NCBI RefSeq assembly: GCF_003570885.1
Contig: NZ_QXJC01000001.1
Location: 248,001 to 312,000 of the forward strand
DNA length: 64,000 nt
DNA from: Simplicispira hankyongi
GTDB taxonomy: Bacteria; Pseudomonadota; Gammaproteobacteria; Burkholderiales; Burkholderiaceae_C
Reading direction: 5' to 3'
In this document: positions 8,507 to 58,406 of the stretch, in pieces
How the letters are laid out: each line of letters begins with the position of its first letter
Numbering within the stretch: position 1 is the stretch's first letter
The notes under the pieces: generated by a model
Database searches by the model: none
The model's input: the letters and a program-made list of their open reading frames with translations, nothing else
Told to the model about the DNA's origin: nothing
Position numbers and translations under genes: made by a program

Positions 8507-9892
8507 TCAGTAGCTGTGTGCACCGTGTGCGCCCAGGCTCATCTGGTACTGGAGGAAGATTTGGTTGTCGGGACGCCCTTCGCGTGAGCGGTCCTGTGCG
8601 AACTGCAGGCGAACACGCGAGAACTCGCTCGGGTTGTAGTCGAGCATCAAGGAGTTCTTGCGCGGCTGATAGCCACTGCCCATCAACGACAGGGCATTGA
8701 TGCCATAGTCCGGCGTGCCCGGGTTCAATCGCTCGGTGCGCAATCCAATGCGCCAGTTGGGCATGAACTGGTAGACACCCTGCACGTACCAGCCGGACTG
8801 AACGGCGCGGTACGCGCCCGTACTGTTGGAATTGCCCACGTCGTACACGAGACTTCCATCGCGCGTGCTGCGCAGGTATTCGCCTTGCAGTTTGAAGTTG
8901 GTGTGCGAGGCATTGCCGTCAGGCGCCCATTTCCAGACCCCATCAACGACCCAGACCCGGGTGCTGCCGCTGAACGCGTTGTTGACCAGGCTTCCGGCGG
9001 CGCTGGTTGCATTCAGCGCCTGGTCGGTGGCCTTTGCGTTGAGCACCGACAGACCGGCGCGCCAGTTGTGGCTGTCACCGATATCGCCCCCCGTATGTGC
9101 GCTCAGTGCCGTCATGCCCGCGCCATTTCGCCCCGTGTCGCTGCCTGGAAAGCTGCGCCCACGACCCAGCTCGGCACTGATTTCGATGTAACGGTCAGTG
9201 GGAGCCAGCCAGCTCAGTTGTACCCCATCGTCACCATATTGAGTGCCGAGCAGGGCCTGGTACGCCAGTGGGTTGTCGGTGAAATCCCAAGTATGCGAAT
9301 GCTGCGGGTTGAGGTAGCCAATACCTGAGAAGAACCGGCCGGCCTTCAGGGACACGCCATTGCCAAGCGATGTGGTCTGAACGTACGCCTCCTCGACCGA
9401 GACCGTGTTGTCCGCATGCAGGGAAATGTTCGCTGCACCGTGCAGCCACGGATCGACGTTTGCAGAAAACCCAAGCTCGGATTCGGCCAAGCTGAGCCCC
9501 CGCGTGCCCGGACCGACCTCAGCGTCCGCGGGCAACTGAAAACCGGTGATCGCGTAGCTTGCCGGATCCAGCGAGGTGCGGGTGTAGAGGCCAGACAGGA
9601 TCAGTGACATCGACGGATTGAAGGAGTTTGCACCGCCACCCGAGGTCGCCGGCACTGTCGCAGCGACGGATGCCGGGGGCTGCGCCACGGCAGCCTCTGG
9701 CTTGGGCGCTTGGGATGTGGCTCCCTCGGCCACCTTCAGCCGTTGTTCCAGTGCCTGAAGCCTTGCTTCATAGGCTGCGCGCATGGCCTCGATCTCCTGT
9801 CGAAGCGCGCTGATATCGGAGGGTGTGTCGGCCATGGCGCCCAATGGCGCGGCCAAGGCGAGCGCGATGCTCGCCAGAAAAGTCTTGTTCAC
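8507..9892 (-). CDS. Outer-membrane beta-barrel protein linked to metal uptake
   Basis: Predicted outer-membrane channel. Signal peptide NKTFLASIALALAAPLGAMA, then a short coiled-coil (ISALRQEIEAMRAAYEARLQALEQRL, residues ~25-50) of the kind that trimerises porins, a Pro/Ala linker, and ~350 residues of alternating beta-strand pattern (GVSLKAGRFFSGIGYLNPQHSH, WYVQGVYQFMPNWRIGLRTERL). It ends in S-Y, an aromatic C terminus as in barrel proteins. The GTG start has GGAG 9 nt upstream. It lies 28 bp before the metal-binding protein gene, so it probably brings the same metal across the outer membrane. Exact family not identified; it resembles OprP-like or DUF-type porins. Confidence 0.8.
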   Translation of the reverse strand: MNKTFLASIALALAAPLGAMADTPSDISALRQEIEAMRAAYEARLQALEQRLKVAEGATSQAPKPEAAVAQPPASVAATVPATSGGGANSFNPSMSLILSGLYTRTSLDPASYAITGFQLPADAEVGPGTRGLSLAESELGFSANVDPWLHGAANISLHADNTVSVEEAYVQTTSLGNGVSLKAGRFFSGIGYLNPQHSHTWDFTDNPLAYQALLGTQYGDDGVQLSWLAPTDRYIEISAELGRGRSFPGSDTGRNGAGMTALSAHTGGDIGDSHNWRAGLSVLNAKATDQALNATSAAGSLVNNAFSGSTRVWVVDGVWKWAPDGNASHTNFKLQGEYLRSTRDGSLVYDVGNSNSTGAYRAVQSGWYVQGVYQFMPNWRIGLRTERLNPGTPDYGINALSLMGSGYQPRKNSLMLDYNPSEFSRVRLQFAQDRSREGRPDNQIFLQYQMSLGAHGAHSY

Positions 9893-9967
9893 GGGTTCTT
9901 GCTCCAGCAATGGCTATGAAAGACGCACCGCCACGCGGGGCGCGGCTCGGGCGTCACGATTCAAAGA

Positions 9968-10324
9968 TCAGTGCAGGGCAAGTGGTGGGGCGCGGCTCTC
10001 GTAAGCCGGGAAGAAGGGGAAACCCCAGGCACTGCTGGGCTTGGCTTTCGGCACCTCATAGAGGGCTGTCGAATGGAATAGGGCCGGAGGTTCGGCAGGG
10101 GGCGCACCGCCGATCAGTGCAGCAGCGGTCAGGCAGATACCGCAGTGCGCATGAGAAAGCGCCAACTTGCCGCCGAGTTCGCGGGTTTCTTTCGCCTCTT
10201 CCGCGAGCCCGTGGGTGTACACGTGCATCGTCGCGGCCACCTGAGCTGCCGGCAATAGCAGCAACAGCCACAACCACCACATGCAGCGGCGGCGGGAGGC
10301 AGTATGAGCACGCAGGTTTGACAT
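9968..10324 (-). CDS. Small exported or membrane-anchored Cys/His protein
   Basis: 118 aa with one hydrophobic segment (MWWLWLLLLLPAAQVAATM) that can act as signal or anchor, followed by a short stretch HAHCGICLTAAALIGG holding two Cys and three His in the wider segment. This resembles the DUF2946 type of small proteins found beside metal transport genes. An internal ATG at residue 15 is an alternative start. The start codon sits inside a perfect inverted repeat CATCTG-GAAT-CAGATG (10322-10337), which might fold over the initiation site. First gene of the metal group. Role could be metal binding or sensing; not proven. Confidence 0.6.
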   Translation of the reverse strand: MSNLRAHTASRRRCMWWLWLLLLLPAAQVAATMHVYTHGLAEEAKETRELGGKLALSHAHCGICLTAAALIGGAPPAEPPALFHSTALYEVPKAKPSSAWGFPFFPAYESRAPPLALH

Positions 10325-10516
10325 CTGGAATCAGATGATCTTAGCAGTGCTCGCCGACAGCAGCAGGTTCTTGACCGGCTGGCGACCGCCACTGGTGGAG
10401 TAAGTGTGAGAGGTATCCGATTTGGCCGCACGTCGACCGGCCGTATCACCGCAATTGGAAGCATCCTTGCAATTCGGTGATTACAAATTGGGCGGCCAAT
10501 CAATTGTCCGGCCGGC

Positions 10517-10553
10517 AAGAAAAAAGCACTTGGCGCCGAAACGCCAAGTGCTT
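10517..10553 (-). terminator. Intrinsic terminator of the first tRNA-Asn
   Basis: Perfect 12-bp stem (AAGCACTTGGCG and its complement) with a 6-nt loop. Read on the minus strand it is followed by six T residues, just downstream of the tRNA gene. A T-rich run on the other side (10558-10568) makes it potentially bidirectional. The rest of the 243-bp gap before the small Cys/His gene has no gene I can support. Confidence 0.85.
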
Positions 10554-10567
10554 GATTCATTTTTTTT

Positions 10568-10643
10568 TGGCTCCTCGACCTGGGCTCGAACCAGGGACCT
10601 ACGGATTAACAGTCCGGCGCTCTACCAACTGAGCTATCGAGGA
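10568..10643 (-). tRNA. tRNA-Asn(GTT), copy 1
   Basis: 76-nt cloverleaf with encoded CCA. Acceptor TCCTCGA pairs with TCGAGGA, anticodon loop CTGTTAA gives GTT, and the T arm holds GGTTCGAGCCC. Identical to the copy 55 nt upstream on the same strand. Confidence 0.97.
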
Positions 10644-10654
10644 AAAATCGGCAT

Positions 10655-10683
10655 GAAAAAGCCCCGCTTGCACACGCAGGGCT
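10655..10683 (-). terminator. Terminator between the two tRNA-Asn genes
   Basis: On the minus strand AGCCCTGC pairs with GCGGGGCT (one G-T pair) around an 8-nt loop and is followed by five T residues. It suggests that the two tRNA copies can be terminated separately. Confidence 0.7.
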
Positions 10684-10697
10684 CAATAAAAAAATTC

Positions 10698-10773
10698 TGG
10701 CTCCTCGACCTGGGCTCGAACCAGGGACCTACGGATTAACAGTCCGGCGCTCTACCAACTGAGCTATCGAGGA
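10698..10773 (-). tRNA. tRNA-Asn(GTT), copy 2
   Basis: Same 76-nt sequence as the neighbouring copy, including CCA, so a recent tandem duplication or gene conversion. Confidence 0.97.
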
Positions 10774-10820
10774 ACAAGCCTCAGATTATATACAGGAATT
10801 GGGTGCGGTCCGGGTAGTTT

Positions 10821-11255
10821 TCACTGCGGCGGCGGAGGTTCTGGTCGGTACCACAGCCAGATCAGCACCACAGCCATGTTGCTGCTCGCTACGATGGGGA
10901 TCCAAAGTTTTTGCACGGTCAGGAACAGCACCACCGCGCACAGTGCCATGACAAAGCTGGCGTGCCACTTGGCCCGACGGCTTACCCAGCCGCCGCGCGA
11001 CCAGTCACGCAACATGGGGCCGAAAAGGCGGTGGTACCAGAGCCACTCGTGCAGGCGCGGGGAACTGCGCGCCGCGGCCCACGCTGCCATGAGGATGAAC
11101 ACCGTCGTGGGCAGGCCCGGCAAGAAAATGCCAATGACACCCAGCGCCAGGCACAGCACGGCAAACCCATGCAGCAGCCAGCGCGCGGCCCGCGGCACCG
11201 GCGGCATGCTTGGTGGTGGTGGAATACCGGGGGCAGGTGGCGGATCGTCGTTCAT
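10821..11255 (-). CDS. DUF454 (YbaN-like) inner-membrane protein
   Basis: 144-aa protein with a Pro-rich N terminus ([19 protein letters not shown]), then the DUF454 core: [35 protein letters not shown], a soluble segment with [21 protein letters not shown], and two further membrane segments near the C terminus. Start MNDD chosen because the in-frame extension upstream overlaps the deformylase promoter region and reads as noise. The molecular role of DUF454 is not established; family assignment is confident. It is divergent from def, with about 70 bp between the starts. Confidence 0.88.
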
Positions 11256-11326
11256 GCGGGAGTGTGCAGTGCGTCGCGGTATTCTCGCCAATCGGCACAG
11301 CCCTATTGGCAAGACAGGAAGAGGAC

Positions 11327-16370: not shown

Positions 16371-19300
16371 GTGACTCTGCACCTGACCCTACTTGTGGGC
16401 GGCAACGCCCTGAGCCCTTTCCGTGCGCGCCAGTTGTTGCCGCAACTCCAGGGCATTGAGCCGCGCATAGATGCGGTGCGCGCACGCTACGTGCATTGGG
16501 TGGCGACACCCGGCGAACCCACCCCGGCGCAGGCGCAGCAACTCGCGGCGCTGCTGACCTATGGCGAGCCGTTCGAAGGCGGTGACGCCGGACAGGCCAT
16601 CGTCGTGGCGCCGCGCCTGGGCACCGTCTCGCCCTGGGCCTCCAAGGCCAGCGACATTGCCCACAATTGTGGGCTGGACGTGCGCCGCATCGAGCGCGTG
16701 ACCGAATACCGCATCACGTTGCGCTCGGGCCTGCTGGGCGGCACGAAGTCGCTGGACGCCGGCCAGATCGCCCAGGTGGGCGCGCTGCTGCACGACCGCA
16801 TGACCGAATCGTGGTTCACCGACCTGGACGCGGCGCGCGCGCTGTTCACCGAGCTGCCCGCGCAGCCGATGGCGCAGGTGGACGTGCTGGCTGGTGGCCG
16901 TGCTGCATTGGAGGCCGCCAACACGCAATGGGGCCTGGCGCTGGCGGCCGACGAAATCGACTATTTGGTGCAGGCCTTCACCACCTTGGGGCGCAACCCG
17001 ACGGATGTCGAGCTGATGATGTTTGCGCAGGCCAACAGCGAGCATTGCCGCCACAAAATCTTCAACGCCCAGTTCACCATCGACGGCGCACCGCAGGATC
17101 AGACCCTGTTTGGCATGATCCGCCACACCCACAAGACGAATCCCCAGCACACGGTGGTGGCGTATTCGGACAACGCCTCGGTCATGGAAGGCGGCGTCGT
17201 CGAGAAATTTCAAGCCAAATCAGCCTCCAGCGCAGGTGGGACTAGCGCGACCAGCTATGAAAAAGAGAGTGTTCTGCGGCATGTGCTGATGAAGGTGGAG
17301 ACGCACAACCACCCCACGGCCATCTCGCCCTTCCCTGGTGCCTCGACTGGCGCTGGCGGCGAGATTCGGGACGAAGGCGCCACCGGGCGCGGCTCCAAGC
17401 CCAAGGCGGGGCTGACGGGGTTCACGGTGTCCAAGCTCTGGGGCGGCCTGTCGGATGCGGCAGGCGGCAAGCCCGACCACATTGCCAACCCTTTGCAGAT
17501 CATGACCGAGGGGCCGCTGGGCGGCGCGGCCTTCAACAACGAGTTTGGCCGGCCCAACCTGCTGGGGTACTTCCGTGAGTACGAAGCCGAAGTCGCCGGC
17601 GTGCAGCGCGGCTACCACAAGCCCATCATGATTGCCGGCGGTCTGGGCAGCATTGACGGCGCGCTGACGCAGAAAATCGCATTCCCGGCCGGCTCGCTGC
17701 TGGTGCAGCTCGGCGGCCCCGGCATGCGCATTGGCATGGGCGGCAGCGCTGCGAGCTCCATGGCCACCGGCCAGAACGCCGCTGAACTCGATTTTGATTC
17801 GGTGCAGCGCGGCAACCCCGAGATCGAGCGGCGCGCACAAGAGGTCATCAACCACTGCGCCGCGCTGGGCGCAGGCAACCCGATTCTGGCGATCCACGAT
17901 GTGGGCGCGGGCGGGCTCTCCAACGCCTTCCCGGAGCTGGTGAACGACGCGGGGCGCGGCGCGCGCTTTGACTTGTCCGCCGTGCCCCTGGAAGAAACGG
18001 GCATGGCGCCGCGCGAAATCTGGTGCAACGAGAGCCAGGAGCGCTACGTGCTGGCTATTGCACCCGAGTCGCTCGCGCAGTTCGAGGCCTTTTGCGAGCG
18101 CGAGCGCTGCCCCTTTGCCGTGGTCGGCGTGACCACCGAGGCGCGCGAACTGGTGGTGGGCGCTGGCGTGCCGCTGGCGCCCGGCGCCGCCTTGCCCGAG
18201 GCCGCGCAAGCCGTCCACATGCCCATGGATGTGTTGCTCGGCAAGCCGCCCAAGATGCACCGCGACGTGACCCGCGTGCCGCGCACCGCCCAGCCGCTGA
18301 ACGCCACCGGCGTGGCGCTCCAACAGGCCGCGCTCGATGTGCTGAGCCACCCGACGGTGGCGTCCAAGCGCTTTCTTATCACCATTGGCGACCGCACCGT
18401 GGGCGGCCTCACGCACCGCGACCAGATGGTCGGCCCCTGGCAGGTGCCGGTGGCGGACTGCGCCGTCACCCTGGCCGATTACGCCGGTTTCGCCGGCGAA
18501 GCCATGGCGCTGGGCGAGCGCACGCCCATTGCCTCCCTCGACGCGCCGGCCTCGGGCCGCATGGCGGTGGCCGAAGCCATCACCAACCTGCTGGCCGCGC
18601 CCATCGATCTGGCCCGCGTCAAACTGTCAGCCAACTGGATGGCGGCGTGCGGCGAACCGGGCGAAGACGCCGCGCTGTACGATACGGTGCGCGCTGTGGG
18701 GCTGGAGCTGTGCCCTGCGCTGGGCGTTTCCATCCCCGTGGGCAAGGACAGCCTGTCGATGCGCACGCAGTGGACGCATGAGGGTGAGGCGAAAAAAGTC
18801 GTCTCGCCGGTCAGCCTGATCGTCACCGCCTTTGCCACCTTGCCCGATGTGCGCGGCACGCTCACGCCGCAGCTCGCGCGGGACGTGGACAGCACGCTGA
18901 TCCTCATCGACCTGGGCAAGGGCCAGGCGCGCATGGGCGGCAGCATCCTCGCGCAGACCCTGGGCCAGAGCGGCGGCGCCGTGCCCGACCTGGACGATGC
19001 GCAAGACCTGAAGAACCTCGTCGCCGCGGTGAATGCCCTGCGCGCCGAGGGAAAAATTCTCGCCTACCACGACCGCAGCGATGGTGGCCTCTTCGCCGCC
19101 GCCTTTGAAATGGCGATTGCCGGGCAGGTGGGCGTGGCGCTCAACATCGACATGCTGCTCACCGAAGGCGACGGCGTGAACGACAGCCGCATGGAAGCGG
19201 GCGACGCCAAGAACTGGGCGCAGCAGATGAGCGTGCGGCGCGATGAGCTGGCGCTCAAGGCGCTGTTCAACGAAGAACTGGGCGTGCTGCTGCAGGTGGC

Positions 19301-20414: not shown

Positions 20415-20433
20415 GCGCCTTTTAGCCGATTCA

Positions 20434-20496
20434 CTATTAAAAATATAGCTACCAGCGCATGTCCTACATGCGCTGGAGGCGTATTTTTATCAAAAT
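20434..20496 (+). repeat. Dispersed palindromic repeat, near-perfect hairpin copy
   Basis: Best-formed copy: CCAGCGCATGT and ACATGCGCTGG pair perfectly (11 bp) around a CCT loop, between ATTAAAAATATAGCT on the left and AGGCGTATTTTTATCAAAA on the right. It lies about 20 bp after the purL stop and may serve as its terminator. Confidence 0.75.
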
Positions 20497-20528
20497 CTCT
20501 GACCTTCACCTGACCCACAAGGATTCCC

Positions 20529-21515
20529 ATGGCCGGAGCCAGTCTGCTGACGCTGCTTGACGATATCGCCACCATCCTCGACGACGTGGCGCTGATGACC
20601 AAGGTGGCCGCCAAGAAGAGCGCGGTCATTGCCGACGACGTGGGCGTGATGACCAAGGTGGCGGCACAAAAGACGGCTGGCGTGCTGGGCGACGACCTGG
20701 CGCTCAACGCCCAGCAGGTCGGTGGTGTGCGCGCCGAGCGCGAGATTCCCGTGGTCTGGGCCGTGGCCAAGGGCTCGTTCCTCAACAAGCTGATCCTGGT
20801 GCCGCTGGCGCTGGCCATCAGCGCCTTTGCGTCCTGGGCTGTGACGCCGCTGCTCATGGTCGGCGGCGCCTTTCTTTGCTACGAAGGTTTCGAGAAAGTT
20901 GCCCACCGCCTGCTGCACAGCCGCCAGCAGGACAAGGTTGAGCACGAAGGCCATGTCCGCGCCAACGCCGATCCCCAGATCGATCTGGTGGCGTACGAGA
21001 AAGACAAGGTCAAGGGCGCGGTGCGCACCGACTTCATCCTCTCCGCCGAAATCGTCACCATTGCCTTGGGCACCGTGGCGACTGCGCCGTTTGGCCAGCG
21101 CCTGGCGGTGCTTTCGGCCATTGCCGTGGTGATGACGGTGGGCGTCTATGGCCTGGTGGCGGGCATCGTCAAGCTCGATGACCTGGGGCTGTGGCTCAGC
21201 CGCAAGTCCAGCAGTGCCGCCCGCAGCCTGGGCGATGCCATCGTGCGCGTCGCGCCCTGGCTGATGAAGGGCCTGACGGTGGTGGGCACGGCGGCCATGT
21301 TTCTGGTGGGCGGCGGCATTCTGGTGCACGGCGTGCACGCCGTGGCCGAGGCCATCGACGCGTTGGCTGCGCGCACGGTCATCGGACCGCTGGGCCATGT
21401 GTGGGCAACGCTGGCCGCACAACTGCTCAACGCCGGCGTGGGCGTGCTTGCGGGCGCGGTGGTGCTGGCGGTGGTGGCGCTGATCCAGCGGCTGCGCCCA
21501 CCGCGCCGCGCTTGA
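20529..21515 (+). CDS. DUF808 family (YedI-like) inner-membrane protein
   Basis: 328 aa. The N terminus MAGASLLTLLDDIATILDDVALMTKVAAKKSAVIADDVGVMTK and the phrase GVLGDDLALNAQQV are diagnostic of DUF808. Several membrane segments follow (LILVPLALAISAFASWAVTPLLMVGGAFLCYEGFEK; AVLSAIAVVMTVGVYGLVAGIV; GTAAMFLVGGGILVHGV; LLNAGVGVLAGAVVLAVVALI). ATG with an AAGGA site (CACAAGGATTCCC). Function unknown in the family. It stands alone between purL and the OmpW-like gene. Confidence 0.92.
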   Translation: MAGASLLTLLDDIATILDDVALMTKVAAKKSAVIADDVGVMTKVAAQKTAGVLGDDLALNAQQVGGVRAEREIPVVWAVAKGSFLNKLILVPLALAISAFASWAVTPLLMVGGAFLCYEGFEKVAHRLLHSRQQDKVEHEGHVRANADPQIDLVAYEKDKVKGAVRTDFILSAEIVTIALGTVATAPFGQRLAVLSAIAVVMTVGVYGLVAGIVKLDDLGLWLSRKSSSAARSLGDAIVRVAPWLMKGLTVVGTAAMFLVGGGILVHGVHAVAEAIDALAARTVIGPLGHVWATLAAQLLNAGVGVLAGAVVLAVVALIQRLRPPRRA

Positions 21516-38045: not shown

Positions 38046-38459
38046 TCAGGTGGCGTCGGACGCGAAATCAAGCGATGCGGAATTCATGCAGTAGCGCAGC
38101 CCGGTCGGGGCAGGGCCGTCCTCGAACACATGGCCGAGGTGCGAGCCGCATTGTGCACAAACCGTTTCCACCCTCCGCATGCCATGGCTGAGGTCGACGT
38201 TTTCCCGGATGGCGCCCGGCACGGCCTGCGAGAAGCTCGGCCAGCCACAGCCGGCGTCGAACTTGGTGCCGGCATCGAACAGCTTGTTGCCGCAGCAGAT
38301 GCAGTGGTAGCTGCCGTCCGCCCAATGGGCTTCGTATTTGCCCGTGAAAGGGCGTTCGGTGGCAGCGTGGCGCGTGACGTTCATGGCGCCGGGTTCTGCC
38401 CCCTTTTCACGCAGCACGGCTTGCCACTCGGCTTCGGACTTCTGGATAGGAAAGGTCAT
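38046..38459 (-). CDS. msrB: Peptide-methionine (R)-S-oxide reductase
   Basis: Repairs methionine-R-sulfoxide in proteins. Two CxxC pairs bind structural zinc (CICCGNKLF and [16 protein letters not shown]), and the catalytic Cys is in [11 protein letters not shown]. Substrate-binding block [10 protein letters not shown] is intact. 137 aa, cytosolic form. The start ATG overlaps the selO stop by 4 nt (ATGA), so it is translated together with selO. The two are related by redox repair. Confidence 0.96.
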
Positions 38460-39943
38460 GATGAGCAACTGATGGACAGGTGGGACGCCCAATCGGGCGG
38501 GGGCAGGGCGTAGGCTTCGTCGCCGGGGCGCTCATCAAAGGGATGGGCCAGCAGCATTTGCAAGCGGTCAATCTCGCTGAAATCGCCCGTATTCGCCTGT
38601 CGGATGGCCTGTTCCGCCAAGTAGTTCCGCAGCACATAGGCGGGGTTGGTTTTTAGCATCAAATTGGCCGCTAGCGCACGGTCTGTCTGCGCAAGCAGCT
38701 CTGAATACGAGAGCAACCATTGGTCGAACGCCGCGCGGTCGGCAAACAGGTCGCGCACGGGCTCGAAATCGCCAGCCGCCACGGCGTGCGAGATCCGCCG
38801 CCAGAAGATGGTGGTGTCCACCGCGTTGTCGGCGAGCAGGCGCAGGATGCCGTCCATGACCACACTCTCGTCGGCAAGTGGCGCAGGCAAGCCGAGCTTG
38901 GCCCGCATGCGCGCCATGAGCGCACGGGGAAACACTTGCTTGTAGGAGTCCAGCGCTTCGACCACGCGCGCAGGCTCGCCAATCAAGGGCTGCAGCGCTT
39001 GCCCCAGACAGAAGAGATTCCAGTAGACGACATTGGGTTGGCGGTCAAATGCGTAGCGCCCCCTATGGTCGCTGTGATTGCACACATGGTTGGGCACATA
39101 GGCGTCGAGAAACTGAAATGGTCCGTAGTCAATAGTCAGGCCCAGGATGCTCATGTTGTCGGTATTGAGCACACCATGGCAAAAGCCGACCGCCTGCCAC
39201 TGGGCTACCAGCGCCGCAGTGCGCTCGCTCACTGCCCGCAGAAAATCCGCGTACGGGTTGCCCAAGGCGGCACCCGCGCGGCATTCGGGGTAGTGCCGTG
39301 CGATCACATGGTCGGCCAACTGCCGGAGCGCATCGTGGTTGCCAGCAGCGGCAAAGTGCTCGAAATGTCCAAAGCGCACAAAACTCGGCGCAGCGCGCGT
39401 GACGACAGCGGTGGTCTCCATCGTTTCGCGCCGCACCCGCAGGGGCGAGCCAATGAGCGCCAGTGCCCGCGTCGTGGGAATGCCCAGCGCCTGCATGGCT
39501 TCGCTCACCAGAAACTCACGAATGCTCGAACGCAGCACCGCCCGCCCATCGCCCATGCGCGAATAGGGCGTCAGGCCGCTGCCCTTGAGCTGGATTTCCA
39601 TTGGCCCTGTAGGCGTTTCCACCTCGCCCAGCAGGATGGCCCGGCCATCTCCCAATTGCCCGGCCCAGACACCGAACTGGTGGCCGCTGTACACGCTGGC
39701 CAGGGGAGTGCTGCCGTGCAGGGGGGTATTGCCGCTCAGGGCGTGCAATGCCGCGTTCGAGTGCAGCCAGTCTGGATTTAGCCCGAGCTCTTCCGCCAGC
39801 CCCGTGCTGGTGCCGACCCAATACGGGTTGGGCAGGGGGGTTGGTTGTAGCGGGGTATGGAAAGCTGGCCCCAGAGAGGCGAAGCTGTTGTGCCAGGACA
39901 GACCGCAATCGGCCCGCTCCAGGGGCGCTTCAGGCTGGTTCAT
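38456..39943 (-). CDS. selO: Protein adenylyltransferase SelO (YdiU)
   Basis: Pseudokinase that transfers AMP to protein side chains, tied to oxidative stress. Family blocks: [94 protein letters not shown] and [14 protein letters not shown]. The C terminus ends SCSS, where eukaryotic relatives carry selenocysteine and bacterial ones keep Cys. 495 aa. ATG at MNQPEA is used; upstream codons overlap the next promoter region. First gene of the five-gene run ending with ppiC. Confidence 0.96.
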
Positions 39944-40112
39944 GCGTCCATTCTCCCGCAGGGAGCAAGCTGCGTGGCGTGCAGGGCTATCCTGGGTGAC
40001 GGGACGACTGGCCGTGGGCAGGCGGCTGGGCGCGGTATCGTCCCGGACCACGCCAATGGATGGACCTGCCGATTTGCGCGTGGGTCAGGCGCAGTGCGAT
40101 ATTGCGGGCTAT

Positions 40113-43145: not shown

Positions 43146-44384
43146 GTGAATTTTGCTACTAAAACACTAGCTGCAAGCGTGCTGTTGATAAGCGCTGGAG
43201 GCGTATTTGCTCAACAGGGTGAGACGGTCAAGATCGCAATGATCGAGGGGCTGTCTGGCCCCTTCGCCAATGTGGGGCAAAACCAGCTCAAGAGCTGGCA
43301 GTACGTCGCCGATTATTTTTCCGGCAACAAGAATCCTGCGGGCGTGACGTTTCAGATCAATGCCTTTGATTCGGGCGGCTCACCACAGGGCGCGGTGACC
43401 CAGTTGAAGGCGGCCATTGATCAAGGCTATCACTACATCACCCAGGGCAACGGGTCGGGAGCCGCGCTGGCACTGGAGCAGGCGGTCACCAAGTACAACG
43501 AGCGCAATCCTGGCAAAGAGGTTGTCTACCTCAACTACGCTGCAGTCTCTCCAACCCTGACCAACGAGGATTGCAGCTTCTGGCATTTCCGTCTTGACGC
43601 CGATACCACCATGAAGATGGAGGCACTCACCACCTTCATGAAAGACAAGCCGGAAGTCAAGAAGGTGTACATGCTGGACCAGGACTACTCGCACGGGCAC
43701 GAGGTTTCCAAATACTTCCAGGCAGACATCAAGCGCAAGCGCCCAGATGTGCAAATTGTCGGCGATGACTATGTGCCAATCGGGCATGTCAAAGACTTTG
43801 CGCCCTACGTGGCCAAGATCAAGCAGTCGGGCGCCGACGCCATCGTGACCGGCAATTGGGGTGCCGACTTGACCCTGTTCGTCAAGGCCCTGGGCGAAGC
43901 GGGTCTGAATTTGCCGATGTACACCTATTATGCAGGTGTCTCCGGCACGCCGACGGCGCTTGCTGCCCTGGGGGACAAAACCCAAGTCTACGTAGTGTCC
44001 TACGGTTACTCCCAAACGACAGGCGAGCTGGGCAAGGTCGTTGAAGGGTTCAAGAAAAAGTACAACGACGACTTCTATACCTTTGCCATTTACAACGGCA
44101 TCAAGCTGCTGAACGCCGCAATGGTCAAAGCCAAGTCGACCAATTCGGTCAAGGTGGCGCAGGCCTTGGAAGGCATGGAAGTTCCAAGCTTTGCGGGCGA
44201 GGTCACGATGCGCAAGTCGGACCACCAGTTGCAGCAAAGCCTGTTCATCACGAAGTGGGAAAAGGTCAGCGCCAAGTACCCCTACAGCAACGAAAACACG
44301 GGCTACACCTTCGCCCCGATCAAGCAGTTTGAGCCCTATGTCTCAAGCACGCCCACCAGCTGCCAGATGAAGCGTCCTGGCTGA
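43146..44384 (+). CDS. Liv-type ABC transporter substrate-binding protein
   Basis: Periplasmic receptor of a branched-chain-amino-acid-type importer (Peripla_BP_6): KIAMIEGLSGPFANVGQNQLKSW, FDSGGSPQGAVTQLKAAIDQG, QGNGSGAALALEQAV, VYMLDQDYSHGHEVSKYF, and TGNWGADLTLFVKALGEAGL. GTG start with AGGAG 8 nt upstream. The signal peptide (residues 1-22, cleavage after VFA) is encoded by DNA that matches the dispersed palindromic repeat. 412 aa, complete. It begins the transporter gene run and is followed by a hairpin terminator. Ligand not evident; it need not be an amino acid given the fatty-acid genes around it. Confidence 0.92.
   Translation: MNFATKTLAASVLLISAGGVFAQQGETVKIAMIEGLSGPFANVGQNQLKSWQYVADYFSGNKNPAGVTFQINAFDSGGSPQGAVTQLKAAIDQGYHYITQGNGSGAALALEQAVTKYNERNPGKEVVYLNYAAVSPTLTNEDCSFWHFRLDADTTMKMEALTTFMKDKPEVKKVYMLDQDYSHGHEVSKYFQADIKRKRPDVQIVGDDYVPIGHVKDFAPYVAKIKQSGADAIVTGNWGADLTLFVKALGEAGLNLPMYTYYAGVSGTPTALAALGDKTQVYVVSYGYSQTTGELGKVVEGFKKKYNDDFYTFAIYNGIKLLNAAMVKAKSTNSVKVAQALEGMEVPSFAGEVTMRKSDHQLQQSLFITKWEKVSAKYPYSNENTGYTFAPIKQFEPYVSSTPTSCQMKRPG
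43155..43217 (+). repeat. Palindromic repeat forming a signal-peptide coding region
   Basis: CTACTAAAA, TAGCTGCAAGCG, GATAAGCGCTGGAGGCGTATTT and TCAACA occur in the same order and spacing as in the extragenic copies. The 17-nt string GCGCTGGAGGCGTATTT is identical to one at 20471, and GATAAGCGCT is shared with the copy at 24551-24618. The segment covers codons 4-24 of the binding-protein gene. Confidence 0.7.
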
Positions 44385-56570: not shown

Positions 56571-58406
56571 ATGACGACCCTACGCTCCACCCTCGATTTC
56601 CTGCTGTACGACTGGCTTCAAGCGGAAACGCTCAACGCACGCGAGCGCTTTGCTGACCATTCGCGCGAGACCTTTGACGCCGTGCTCGACACCTGCGAGC
56701 GCATCGCGCGCGAGAAGTACGCGCCGTTCAACCGCACGGTGGACGCGCAGGAGCCGCAGTTCGACGGTGAAAAGGTCATCCTGCCGCAGGCCACGAAAGA
56801 CGCCTACGACGCCTATGCCGGCTCGGGCATGCTCAGCGCGGCGCAGGATTACGGCATTGGCGGCATGCAACTGCCCTACACGGTGGATGCTGCGGCCAAT
56901 GCCTTTTTTGCCGTGGCATCGATCAGCATCAGCTCCAACCTGCTCAGCACGGGCAATGCCAACCTGCTCATGGTGCACGGCACGGATTTGCAGAAGCAGG
57001 TGTTTGCGCTCAACGAGTTCTCCGGGCGCTTCTCGGGCACCATGTGCCTGTCGGAGCCGCAGGCAGGTTCCAGCTTGAGCGACGTGGCCACCCGCGCCGT
57101 GCCTGATGGCGAGGGCCATGAGAGTGACCCGCTCGGCGCGCGCTACCGGCTCACCGGCAACAAGATGTGGATCTCGTCGGGCGAGCACGAGCTGTCGGAG
57201 AACATCGTCCACCTGGTGCTGGCCAAGATTCCGGGGGCGGATGGCAAGCTGGTGGCGGGCACGCGCGGCATTTCGTTGTTCATCGTGCCCAAGAAGCTGG
57301 TGGATACCGAGGGCAACTTGACCGGCGTGCGCAACGACGTGGCGCTGGCAGGGCTGAACCACAAACTGGGCTGGCGCGGCACCACCAACACGCTGCTCAA
57401 CTTTGGCGAGGGCAAGTACCCCGTCCAGGGCAGGGCGGGTGCCGTGGGCTACCTGGTGGGCCAGCCGGGCAAGGGGTTGGCGTGCATGTTCCACATGATG
57501 AACGAGGCGCGCATCGGCATTGGCATGGCGGCCACCATGCTGGGCCTGGCGGGCTACTACGCCAGCCTCGACTATGCCAAGAACCGCCCGCAGGGCCGGC
57601 CCACGGGTGCTGGCGGCAAAGACGCTGCCCAGCCCCAGGTGCGCATCATTGAGCACGCCGACGTCAAACGCATGCTGCTCGCGCAAAAGAGCTATTGCGA
57701 AGGCGCATTGGCACTGAACCTGTACTGTGCCCGCCTGGTGGACGAGCAGCACACCGGCCAGCTCGAAGCGGCCGATGACGCGCGCCTGCTGCTGGAAGTG
57801 CTCACCCCCATTGCCAAGAGCTGGCCCAGCGAGTTCTGTCTGGAGGCCAATTCGCTGGCCATTCAAATCCACGGCGGCTACGGCTACACGCGCGACTTCC
57901 CGGTGGAGCAGTACTGGCGCGACAACCGCTTGAACATGATCCACGAGGGCACGCACGGCATCCAGGCGGCTGACCTGCTCGGGCGCAAGGTGCTGATGGA
58001 GAACGGCAAAGGCCTGCAACTGCTGGCTGCGCGCATGCAGGCCACCATGGCGCGGGCCGCCGCCGTGCCTGAACTGGCAGCGTATGTGGCTGCGCTGGGC
58101 GACGCCTTGCAGCAGGTGGCCGCGGCCACACAGGCGGCCTGGGCCACGGGCAACCCCACCGAGGCCCTGGCCAATGCCGTGCCCTATATGCAGGCCTTTG
58201 GCCACACTGTGCTGGCCTGGGTGTGGCTGGATGTGGCCCTGGCCACGCTGCGCCTGGATGTTACGCTTTCAGTAGCTGCAAACGCAGGAAGAATGGGCGC
58301 TGCACGCTATTTTTATCACTATGAACTGCCCAAGGTCGGCGCCTGGCTCAAGGTGGTGAACGCGCGCGACATGACCTGCGCAAGCCTGGCGGAAGAGGCT
58401 TTTTAA
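56571..58406 (+). CDS. Acyl-CoA dehydrogenase, long C-terminal-domain type
   Basis: FAD enzyme for the first step of beta-oxidation. 611 aa, the long class with extra N-terminal helices and a C-terminal domain (about 150 residues beyond the core). Landmarks: MCLSEPQAGSSLSDVATRA, YRLTGNKMWISSGEHELSENIVHLVLA, GYLVGQPGKGLACMFHMMNEARIGIG, and GGYGYTRDFPVEQYWRDNRLNMIHEGTHGIQAADLLGRK, which holds the catalytic Glu region. ATG at MTTLRSTLDF. Near the end, codons 566-585 match the dispersed repeat. In related clusters such a gene sits directly with thiolase and the fusion protein; here it is cut off by the AT-rich block. Confidence 0.94.
   Translation: MTTLRSTLDFLLYDWLQAETLNARERFADHSRETFDAVLDTCERIAREKYAPFNRTVDAQEPQFDGEKVILPQATKDAYDAYAGSGMLSAAQDYGIGGMQLPYTVDAAANAFFAVASISISSNLLSTGNANLLMVHGTDLQKQVFALNEFSGRFSGTMCLSEPQAGSSLSDVATRAVPDGEGHESDPLGARYRLTGNKMWISSGEHELSENIVHLVLAKIPGADGKLVAGTRGISLFIVPKKLVDTEGNLTGVRNDVALAGLNHKLGWRGTTNTLLNFGEGKYPVQGRAGAVGYLVGQPGKGLACMFHMMNEARIGIGMAATMLGLAGYYASLDYAKNRPQGRPTGAGGKDAAQPQVRIIEHADVKRMLLAQKSYCEGALALNLYCARLVDEQHTGQLEAADDARLLLEVLTPIAKSWPSEFCLEANSLAIQIHGGYGYTRDFPVEQYWRDNRLNMIHEGTHGIQAADLLGRKVLMENGKGLQLLAARMQATMARAAAVPELAAYVAALGDALQQVAAATQAAWATGNPTEALANAVPYMQAFGHTVLAWVWLDVALATLRLDVTLSVAANAGRMGAARYFYHYELPKVGAWLKVVNARDMTCASLAEEAF
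58264..58323 (+). repeat. Repeat-like segment within the acyl-CoA dehydrogenase gene
   Basis: TAGCTGCAAACG (one base from the signal-peptide copy), then GGCGCTG and CGCTATTTTTATCA in the order and spacing of the family. It encodes VAANAGRMGAARYFYHY. The last part overlaps a conserved aromatic stretch, so partial chance match is possible. Confidence 0.4.

Follow-up and report, generated by a model that had tools for sequence, protein, structure and literature searches.

The DNA encoding the signal peptide (SP) of a branched-chain amino acid-type binding protein resembles a dispersed palindromic repeat of the same genome, and this resemblance was confirmed as real. The SP is probably, if only just, an inherited one of the Sec type, the coding DNA of which would have been pulled in place, without any insertion, towards a dispersed palindromic motif of about 60 bp. 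The gene lies in a window of 64,000 nucleotides, which denotes the whole stretch of DNA analysed here, and is called LivK in the following as a label for the gene at 43146-44384, not as an established name.

Resemblance Between the Signal Peptide Codons and the Repeat

The assignment of LivK to the branched-chain amino acid type is based on its match to PF13458 and on two neighbouring permease genes downstream matching PF02653; its N-terminus reads VNFATKTLAASVLLISAGGVFAQQGETVK in translation. The repeat-like stretch covering the SP (Table 1) shows the layout of the repeat, consisting of the core GCGCTNGAGGCNNATTT and an upstream TAGCT/AGCG at fixed spacing. Aligned without gaps to the 67-column consensus of 69 other copies (approximately GCTATTAAATTGATAGCTGCTAGCGCTTATGGGATAAGCGCTAGAGGCCAATTTGACTTAAAATTTT, with the SP left out), the stretch is identical at 41 of 67 positions and at 30 of 41 core positions. 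On the profile of these 69 copies it scores 27.2 bits, with both arms fitting the profile but not the loop (-13.4) and the right flank (-15.6). This is below every one of the leave-one-out scores of the 69 copies (40.6-99.9, median 81.9), a range that reflects their selection by an exact core. Weaker matches outside ORFs are found in 464 kb as well, e.g., at 39.4, 36.7, 30.8, and 22.6 bits, and down to 10.7 and below.

A sequence-only reading of the window had pointed to a 17-nt identity, GCGCTGGAGGCGTATTT, between the SP codons and the repeat copy after purL. The identity is indeed exact, at 43192-43208 (SP codons 16-21) and 20470-20486, and the sequence has four matches with up to three mismatches versus 0.29 expected, a number reached in 0 of 100 shuffles. 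However, it overstates the kinship with this particular copy, because GTATTT is already present in the same-genus ortholog L112.

In the genome, the core GCGCTNGAGGCNNATTT has 73 matches, including that of the SP itself, versus none for the reversed control, and a wider motif has 156 matches (76 forward and 80 reverse); all these counts are exact pattern matches and hence lower bounds. The repeat is about 60 bp long, with a mean GC content of 41-49% and up to about 290 copies by pattern. Its many copies occur on both strands, in ORFs and outside of them, as is known of uptake sequences. Of 2480 candidates in a model search of the genome, 150 were scored, and the SP is not among the matches listed. 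Among the six reading frames of the consensus, a single one is free of stops throughout, TIKLIAASAYGISARGQFDLKF, whereas a second one on the opposite strand is interrupted once, by a stop shortly after its start, and comes near the frame used by PurL. The open frame is rich in alanine and hydrophobic in part, a composition for which signal peptides and membrane segments should be permissive.

A function as RNA hairpin was considered and rejected. No excess of covariation was observed on A1, which is a weak test since the pattern used for picking A1 fixes the right arm, and the RNA of the LivK SP shows no hairpin fold (z 0.31, compared to -8.2 for the copy after purL and -0.55 and -1.33 for two other copies). 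Searching the 64-kb window against Rfam at gathering thresholds returned three tRNAs and nothing else. Two near-identical tRNA genes are located at 10565-10777, with starts 130 bases apart, and a 54-nt imperfect tandem duplication (72%) is present at 20579-20686.

TABLE 1. Positions of the LivK gene, its repeat-like signal peptide region and further repeat copies in the window or, where a locus precedes the position, in other loci.
Feature	Position	Strand	Evidence
Peripla_BP_6 binding protein gene (LivK), GTG start, mosaic	43146..44384	+	Pfam PF13458, 217 bits
Repeat-like stretch covering SP, codons 4-26, LAASVLLISAGGVFAQ	43155..43221	+	profile 27.2 bits; covariance model 39.1 bits, E=1.2e-7 over window
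17-nt exact identity with repeat copy after purL	43192..43208	+	
Approximate recombination breakpoint: upstream like host genus, downstream like g71 (another genus)	43218..43244	.	sliding identity
Repeat copy after purL, strong hairpin	20433..20499	+	62.8 bits; RNA fold z -8.2
In-frame repeat copy within purL, common to repeat-bearing genus members	17204..17270	-	59.1 bits; 17/20 loci
Repeat-like stretch in selO-like gene 38456-40051(-)	38648..38714	-	44.8 bits; NCBIfam SelO/YdiU models
Repeat copy outside ORFs of at least 100 aa	24555..24621	+	51.4 bits
Repeat copy outside ORFs of at least 100 aa	53270..53336	+	49.5 bits
Repeat copy outside ORFs of at least 100 aa	56425..56491	+	46.0 bits
Repeat copy outside ORFs of at least 100 aa	12621..12687	-	44.1 bits
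Weak repeat-like stretch in acyl-CoA dehydrogenase-like gene, could be chance	58260..58326	+	19.1 bits, E 0.064
GspD SP repeat copy (GspD 9028-11304)	L249:9070-9136		
GspF membrane segment, repeat-like	L249:18743-18809		32.2 bits
Methylmalonyl-CoA mutase (MCM) helix, DNA resembling the repeat in some genomes without an indel	L235:10171-10237		

Orthologs and Mosaic Structure of the Gene

A view on the orthologs shows that the SP is colinear with theirs. The motif G(E/Q)(T/V)V is found at the identical residue in 49 of 54 ortholog rows (46 of 51 distinct ones), counted over a set that includes three pairs of identical DNA and leaves out the more distant L039, L040, and L049-L110; in L049-L110, which include other families, many SPs align with gaps. 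The orthologs, including those from genera with 0-1 repeats, agree in start position and SP length and have a similar ribosome-binding site (the start is perhaps misplaced in L195 and L198, and none is assigned for L111 and L189). The peptide M(K/N)FAIKxVAAS...AG..FAQ is found again in several genera, and the named relatives are Polaromonas sp. C04 with 89% and a Rhodoferax MAG with 87% identity. Within the genus, an ortholog is present in 15 of the 25 other genomes, always with the same colinear SP. The scores of the resulting 16 genes, the window gene among them, run from -21.1 to 38.7, with L122 (38.7) and L116 (30.0) outscoring the window gene. Repeats were counted with the wider motif in 13 of the 16 genomes, which contain 31-156 copies each. 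By contrast, all 12 ortholog SPs from genomes with 0-1 repeats score -23.5 or lower at the same register, as the sequence-only reading would lead one to expect: the 12 orthologs lack the nucleotide stretch, and most related signal peptides score far lower on the profile than the window SP does. Note that this comparison of repeat-bearing and repeat-free genomes amounts, for LivK, to one genus versus others, and that L032, an outgroup MAG outside the repeat counts, scores -18.9 with a synonymous z of 3.7, which is within the range of the genus.

The proposal that the protein recently gained or replaced its SP in this species by insertion of a mobile repeat copy does not agree with these data and has to be regarded as extremely improbable. 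The match is in frame, and the codons GGA, AGC, and ATA bring the window gene closer to the repeat than 13 of the 15 same-genus orthologs; yet all 15 share the colinear SP and the ribosome-binding site, and two of them score higher. An inserted element of the RPE or MITE type should have left an additional stretch in the SP relative to the orthologs, and there is none. Recent insertion of a repeat as SP was thus rejected on the colinearity with the orthologs.

The part of the gene that was exchanged is actually the mature domain, as judged from a comparison of the window with five loci of its own genus and three of g71. The upstream ligase gene is closer to the own genus (71-93% identity versus 61-85% to g71), and so are the SP codons (69-83% versus 47-70%), whereas the spacer shows low identity to both, with one 20-nt piece being nearer to g71 loci. 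Beyond 43218-43244, the sequence of the mature protein and that of the permease gene resemble g71 most (L181 and L182; 73-96%, mostly at least 80) and share only 43-81% identity with the own genus. The switch of identity at this position indicates that the gene would have retained its resident SP while acquiring a new mature part, for which homologous recombination close to the junction of SP and mature protein is the simplest route. The promoter region and SP correspond to the own genus, and the mature binding protein and the permease gene that follow are of the type of another genus. The SP looks like the genus's own Sec-type signal peptide, vertically inherited and inherited in place. Its role in export is taken to be ordinary, and nothing added to it by the repeat is in evidence here.

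Chance and Codon Usage

Among 20,000 synonymous recodings of the SP, the share reaching 27.2 was 0.0000 with the codon usage of the genome or of 5' ends and 0.0004 with that of the SPs of the genus. Shuffling the ORFs of the window (53 kb) synonymously 60 times gave no score of at least 25 in 6.4 million positions, and 278 ORFs of at least 200 aa from the same genome (380 kb, some of these ORFs being probably spurious) contain 16 matches of at least 25 bits, compared to 0.13 per synonymous shuffle. The 16 SPs of the genus, which are related and therefore do not represent independent trials, show a mean synonymous z of 4.16, versus a mean of 1.83 and a maximum of 4.14 for 1000 decoy profiles with shuffled codon blocks (0/1000 as high). 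With the codon usage of genus SPs, the mean z falls to 1.17, with 1/1000 decoys as high. The respective values for 23 outgroup SPs are 1.27 (252/1000) and -1.70 (897/1000). Among the paralogous binding proteins at 14 loci (L127-L140), none has a repeat-like SP; the 5' end of L132 scores -59, and the repeat matches at L127 and L133 fall outside the gene. The claim that the SP codons carry the repeat motif beyond chance and beyond amino acid constraint is supported.

The resemblance might still be coincidental, if an alanine-rich SP with AT-rich early codons simply looked like the alanine-rich open frame of the repeat. The peptide pattern is common to repeat-free genera, the SP codon usage accounts for part of the z value, the score is lower than those of all 69 profile copies, and a value of -18.9 is reached outside the genus by L032. 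Nevertheless, the outcome of the recoding and decoy tests and the excess of matches in ORFs are difficult to reconcile with coincidence, which we consider quite unlikely. Pure chance is disfavoured by the shuffle, recoding, in-ORF count, and decoy tests as well as by the column permutations described below.

Other Genes Carrying the Motif

The SP of the LivK protein is not the strongest case, as the SP of GspD, a loop of PurL, and a helix of MCM provide better ones. The SP of the GspD secretin (TIGR02517) is encoded by a 64.7-bit copy in the same frame as in LivK, TIVSIAACALLISAGGQIHAQ, and is repeat-like in 22 of 25 loci of the genus (22.8-64.7). The three remaining loci, G001, G015, and G022, lack the motif (about -70 to -76), and their genomes hold 0, 1, and 0 repeats, respectively. 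In other genera, positive scores are found in 14 of the best 28 loci, taken from 110 matching genomes among 160. The GspD score broadly tracks the repeat count, with G097 (78 copies, score -10), G153 (41, -26), G045 (0, -18), and G172 (1, 4) as exceptions. In a tree of 53 GspD proteins, in which the genus does not form a single clade, the repeat-poor G001/G015/G022 and G171/G043 (both 100/100) are nested in repeat-bearing clades, and the repeat label requires 6 changes, at least 5 of them by well-supported branches.

The GspD genes also differ in codon choice. Of 37 repeat-bearing rows, 36 have ATAGCT in the SP, compared to only 1 of 16 repeat-free rows (counting six genus rows that lack a wide-motif count as repeat-bearing and G015 as repeat-free). 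Among the isoleucine codons of repeat-bearing genomes, ATA makes up 50 of 136 in the SP versus 17 of 1330 in the mature part, and the corresponding numbers for repeat-free genomes are 6 of 29 versus 6 of 623. This enrichment of ATAGCT and the excess of ATA codons would also agree with selection, rather than drive, for a site at which binding to DNA or RNA benefits the gene. The lack of a hairpin in the RNA of the LivK SP and the occurrence of copies in unrelated genes, in sense as well as antisense orientation, speak against such a nucleic acid function, which appears doubtful at best. Moreover, we know of no factor for such a site.

In PurL, the motif is present in 17 of 20 loci (34.9-71.3), whereas three repeat-poor loci lack it and are 5 residues shorter; the other five of the 25 loci do not cover the segment. 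The MCM helix was compared in 20 loci as well (17 of 21 plus three more, one locus not covering the helix). Five of them score 17-37, six 1-8, and one -10, and the values are -35 to -73 in five repeat-bearing and three repeat-poor genomes, with an indel in none of the 20. The MCM DNA is thus repeat-like without an indel in a protein that is 90-98% identical overall. It has to be noted that 5 of 14 repeat-bearing genomes do not show this resemblance in MCM, which counts against a drive in place. The scores for the GspF segment range from 32 in the own genome to -58 in the repeat-free G043, with the gene found in 8 of 18 stretches. Further repeat-like DNA occurs at codons 3-25 of a 694-aa ORF (L238:18485-18551), which may encode an NAD-dependent DNA ligase, and an antisense copy of 54.8 bits is located inside the gene of a 923-aa S1-domain protein (L234:6968-7034).

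Genome-Specific Dialects and Origin of the Coding Copies

The repeats of the different genomes may be viewed as dialects, each represented by a profile of 16 core-pattern copies (seven genomes, the own and six others; known in-gene copies excluded). The in-gene copies of LivK, GspD, and PurL fit the profile of their own genome best, with only 20 of 5040 permutations as good if kinship is ignored; on the same basis, the single genes gave 77/5040 (LivK), 260/5040 (GspD), and 137/5040 (PurL). Compared to column-permuted copies, the sum was reached in 0 of 1000 cases, and the values of LivK, GspD, and PurL in 5, 19, and 0 per 1000, respectively. The tracking by LivK alone in both tests is further evidence against coincidence. 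Among neighbouring coding segments, 0-1.4% have a dialect value of at least 9, and the maxima lie between 6 and 13; those at 12-13 exceed the value of 9.5 for LivK, which counts against the effect. In an earlier test limited to four genes from four genomes, the true pairing came first among 24. The dialect fit is the most direct evidence pointing to coding copies and repeats that may still interact or share a common force. An origin in place in coding DNA (MCM) and the tracking of genome dialects (seven genomes, three genes, kinship ignored) are both features of uptake sequences.

The SP could also descend from an ancient capture, in which a repeat was inserted at the 5' end in an ancestor of the genus or of the whole family, came to serve as the SP, and has drifted synonymously since, faster where repeats were lost. 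Such an event, which we consider unlikely, would explain why the best synonymous score is still 29-40 in the repeat-free g71 (the 99.99th percentile of window peptides being 21.7), although this support is qualified by an amino acid compatibility with the repeat of down to -46 in other repeat-free genera. The repeat-free GspD lineages nested in bearing clades without a DNA match, some of which keep similar residues, would fit as well. On the other hand, SP length and start are the same in other genera of the family without a trace of insertion, MCM shows that an origin of the motif without one is possible, and the dialect tracking suggests continued interaction. More generally, an old insertion is possible, chiefly for GspD and PurL.

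Drive in place is favoured by the absence of length changes in LivK and MCM. A drive at the nucleotide level, affecting all copies in trans, would write the motif into permissive coding sites, possibly by short-patch gene conversion from the repeats or by a bias during transformation like that for uptake sequences; alternatively, the force may be selection for sites of a putative binding factor. The motif would settle where the peptide tolerates the sole fully open frame of the consensus. More tentatively, and with considerable reservation, the repeat could represent a so far undescribed uptake-like drive motif of about 60 bp, which writes itself in place into genes in a dialect specific for each genome, favours signal peptides and membrane segments via its alanine-rich, partly hydrophobic open frame, and gives way to ordinary codons after repeat loss, with the protein kept.

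Comparison With Known Repeats

Motif pairs listed as potentially novel have been reported from Acidovorax ebreus, GCTTAT(N)5AAGCG, and Polaromonas naphthalenivorans, ATAGCT(N)22CAAAAG, with 114 and 125 copies, respectively, which are mostly intergenic, with 5 and 18 in genes and 2 and 6 overlapping gene ends (PMC5217627). The A. ebreus pair fits the repeat consensus exactly, whereas the P. naphthalenivorans pair agrees in its first half and spacing, but has CAAAAG where the repeat has CTAGAG (PMC5217627). The section concerned of that report treats motif pairs only and mentions neither a signal peptide nor evolution in place or a dialect (PMC5217627). A precedent for repeat-encoded signal peptides is provided by YPAL/RU-2 in enterobacteria (PMC2759123, PMC2229807). 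As described in these sources, however, YPAL/RU-2 and ERIC/RU-1 represent insertions or fusions, with related sequences from other genera bearing unrelated signal sequences (PMC2759123, PMC2229807), whereas the LivK SP is colinear with its orthologs. Rickettsia palindromic elements (RPE), as covered in part by PMC2229807, resemble the repeat in placing a palindrome in frame within conserved proteins. They are inserts of 105-146 bp, and no matching insert is found here, as PurL differs by 5 aa and MCM and LivK by none. The BRE of Betaproteobacteria are likewise small repeats of Polaromonas, Rhodoferax, and Acidovorax that are at times found inside genes (PMC3110155). They are about 90 bp long, with 69% GC in Bordetella, and at times in tandem, compared to 41-49% GC of the repeat, and an identity of the two was rejected on these differences in GC and layout as given in their description (PMC3110155).

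The DNA uptake sequences of Neisseria and Pasteurellaceae also occur in many copies on both strands, at permissive sites and in coding DNA (PMC2397512, PMC2346458). In Neisseria, they are found in permissive sites and tied to gene conversion (PMC2397512). With 10-12 bp and about 1500-2000 copies (PMC2397512, PMC2346458), they are shorter and more numerous than the repeat of about 60 bp and up to about 290 copies by pattern. A literature search for GCGCTAGAGGC returned one unrelated paper. No report of imprinting in place by such a repeat was found in the open-licence literature with queries not aimed at exactly that, and a single query of the same literature yielded no uptake-type motif in this family.

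Taken at their present strength, the data suggest that a long dispersed repeat need not insert in order to shape protein-coding sequence, and reasoning in terms of an element inserted in a gene would misread such cases. GspD, PurL, MCM, and LivK, together with genomes with and without the repeat, form a set for separating drive, gene conversion, and selection, and the repeat may be a lead to an uptake-type motif of this family.
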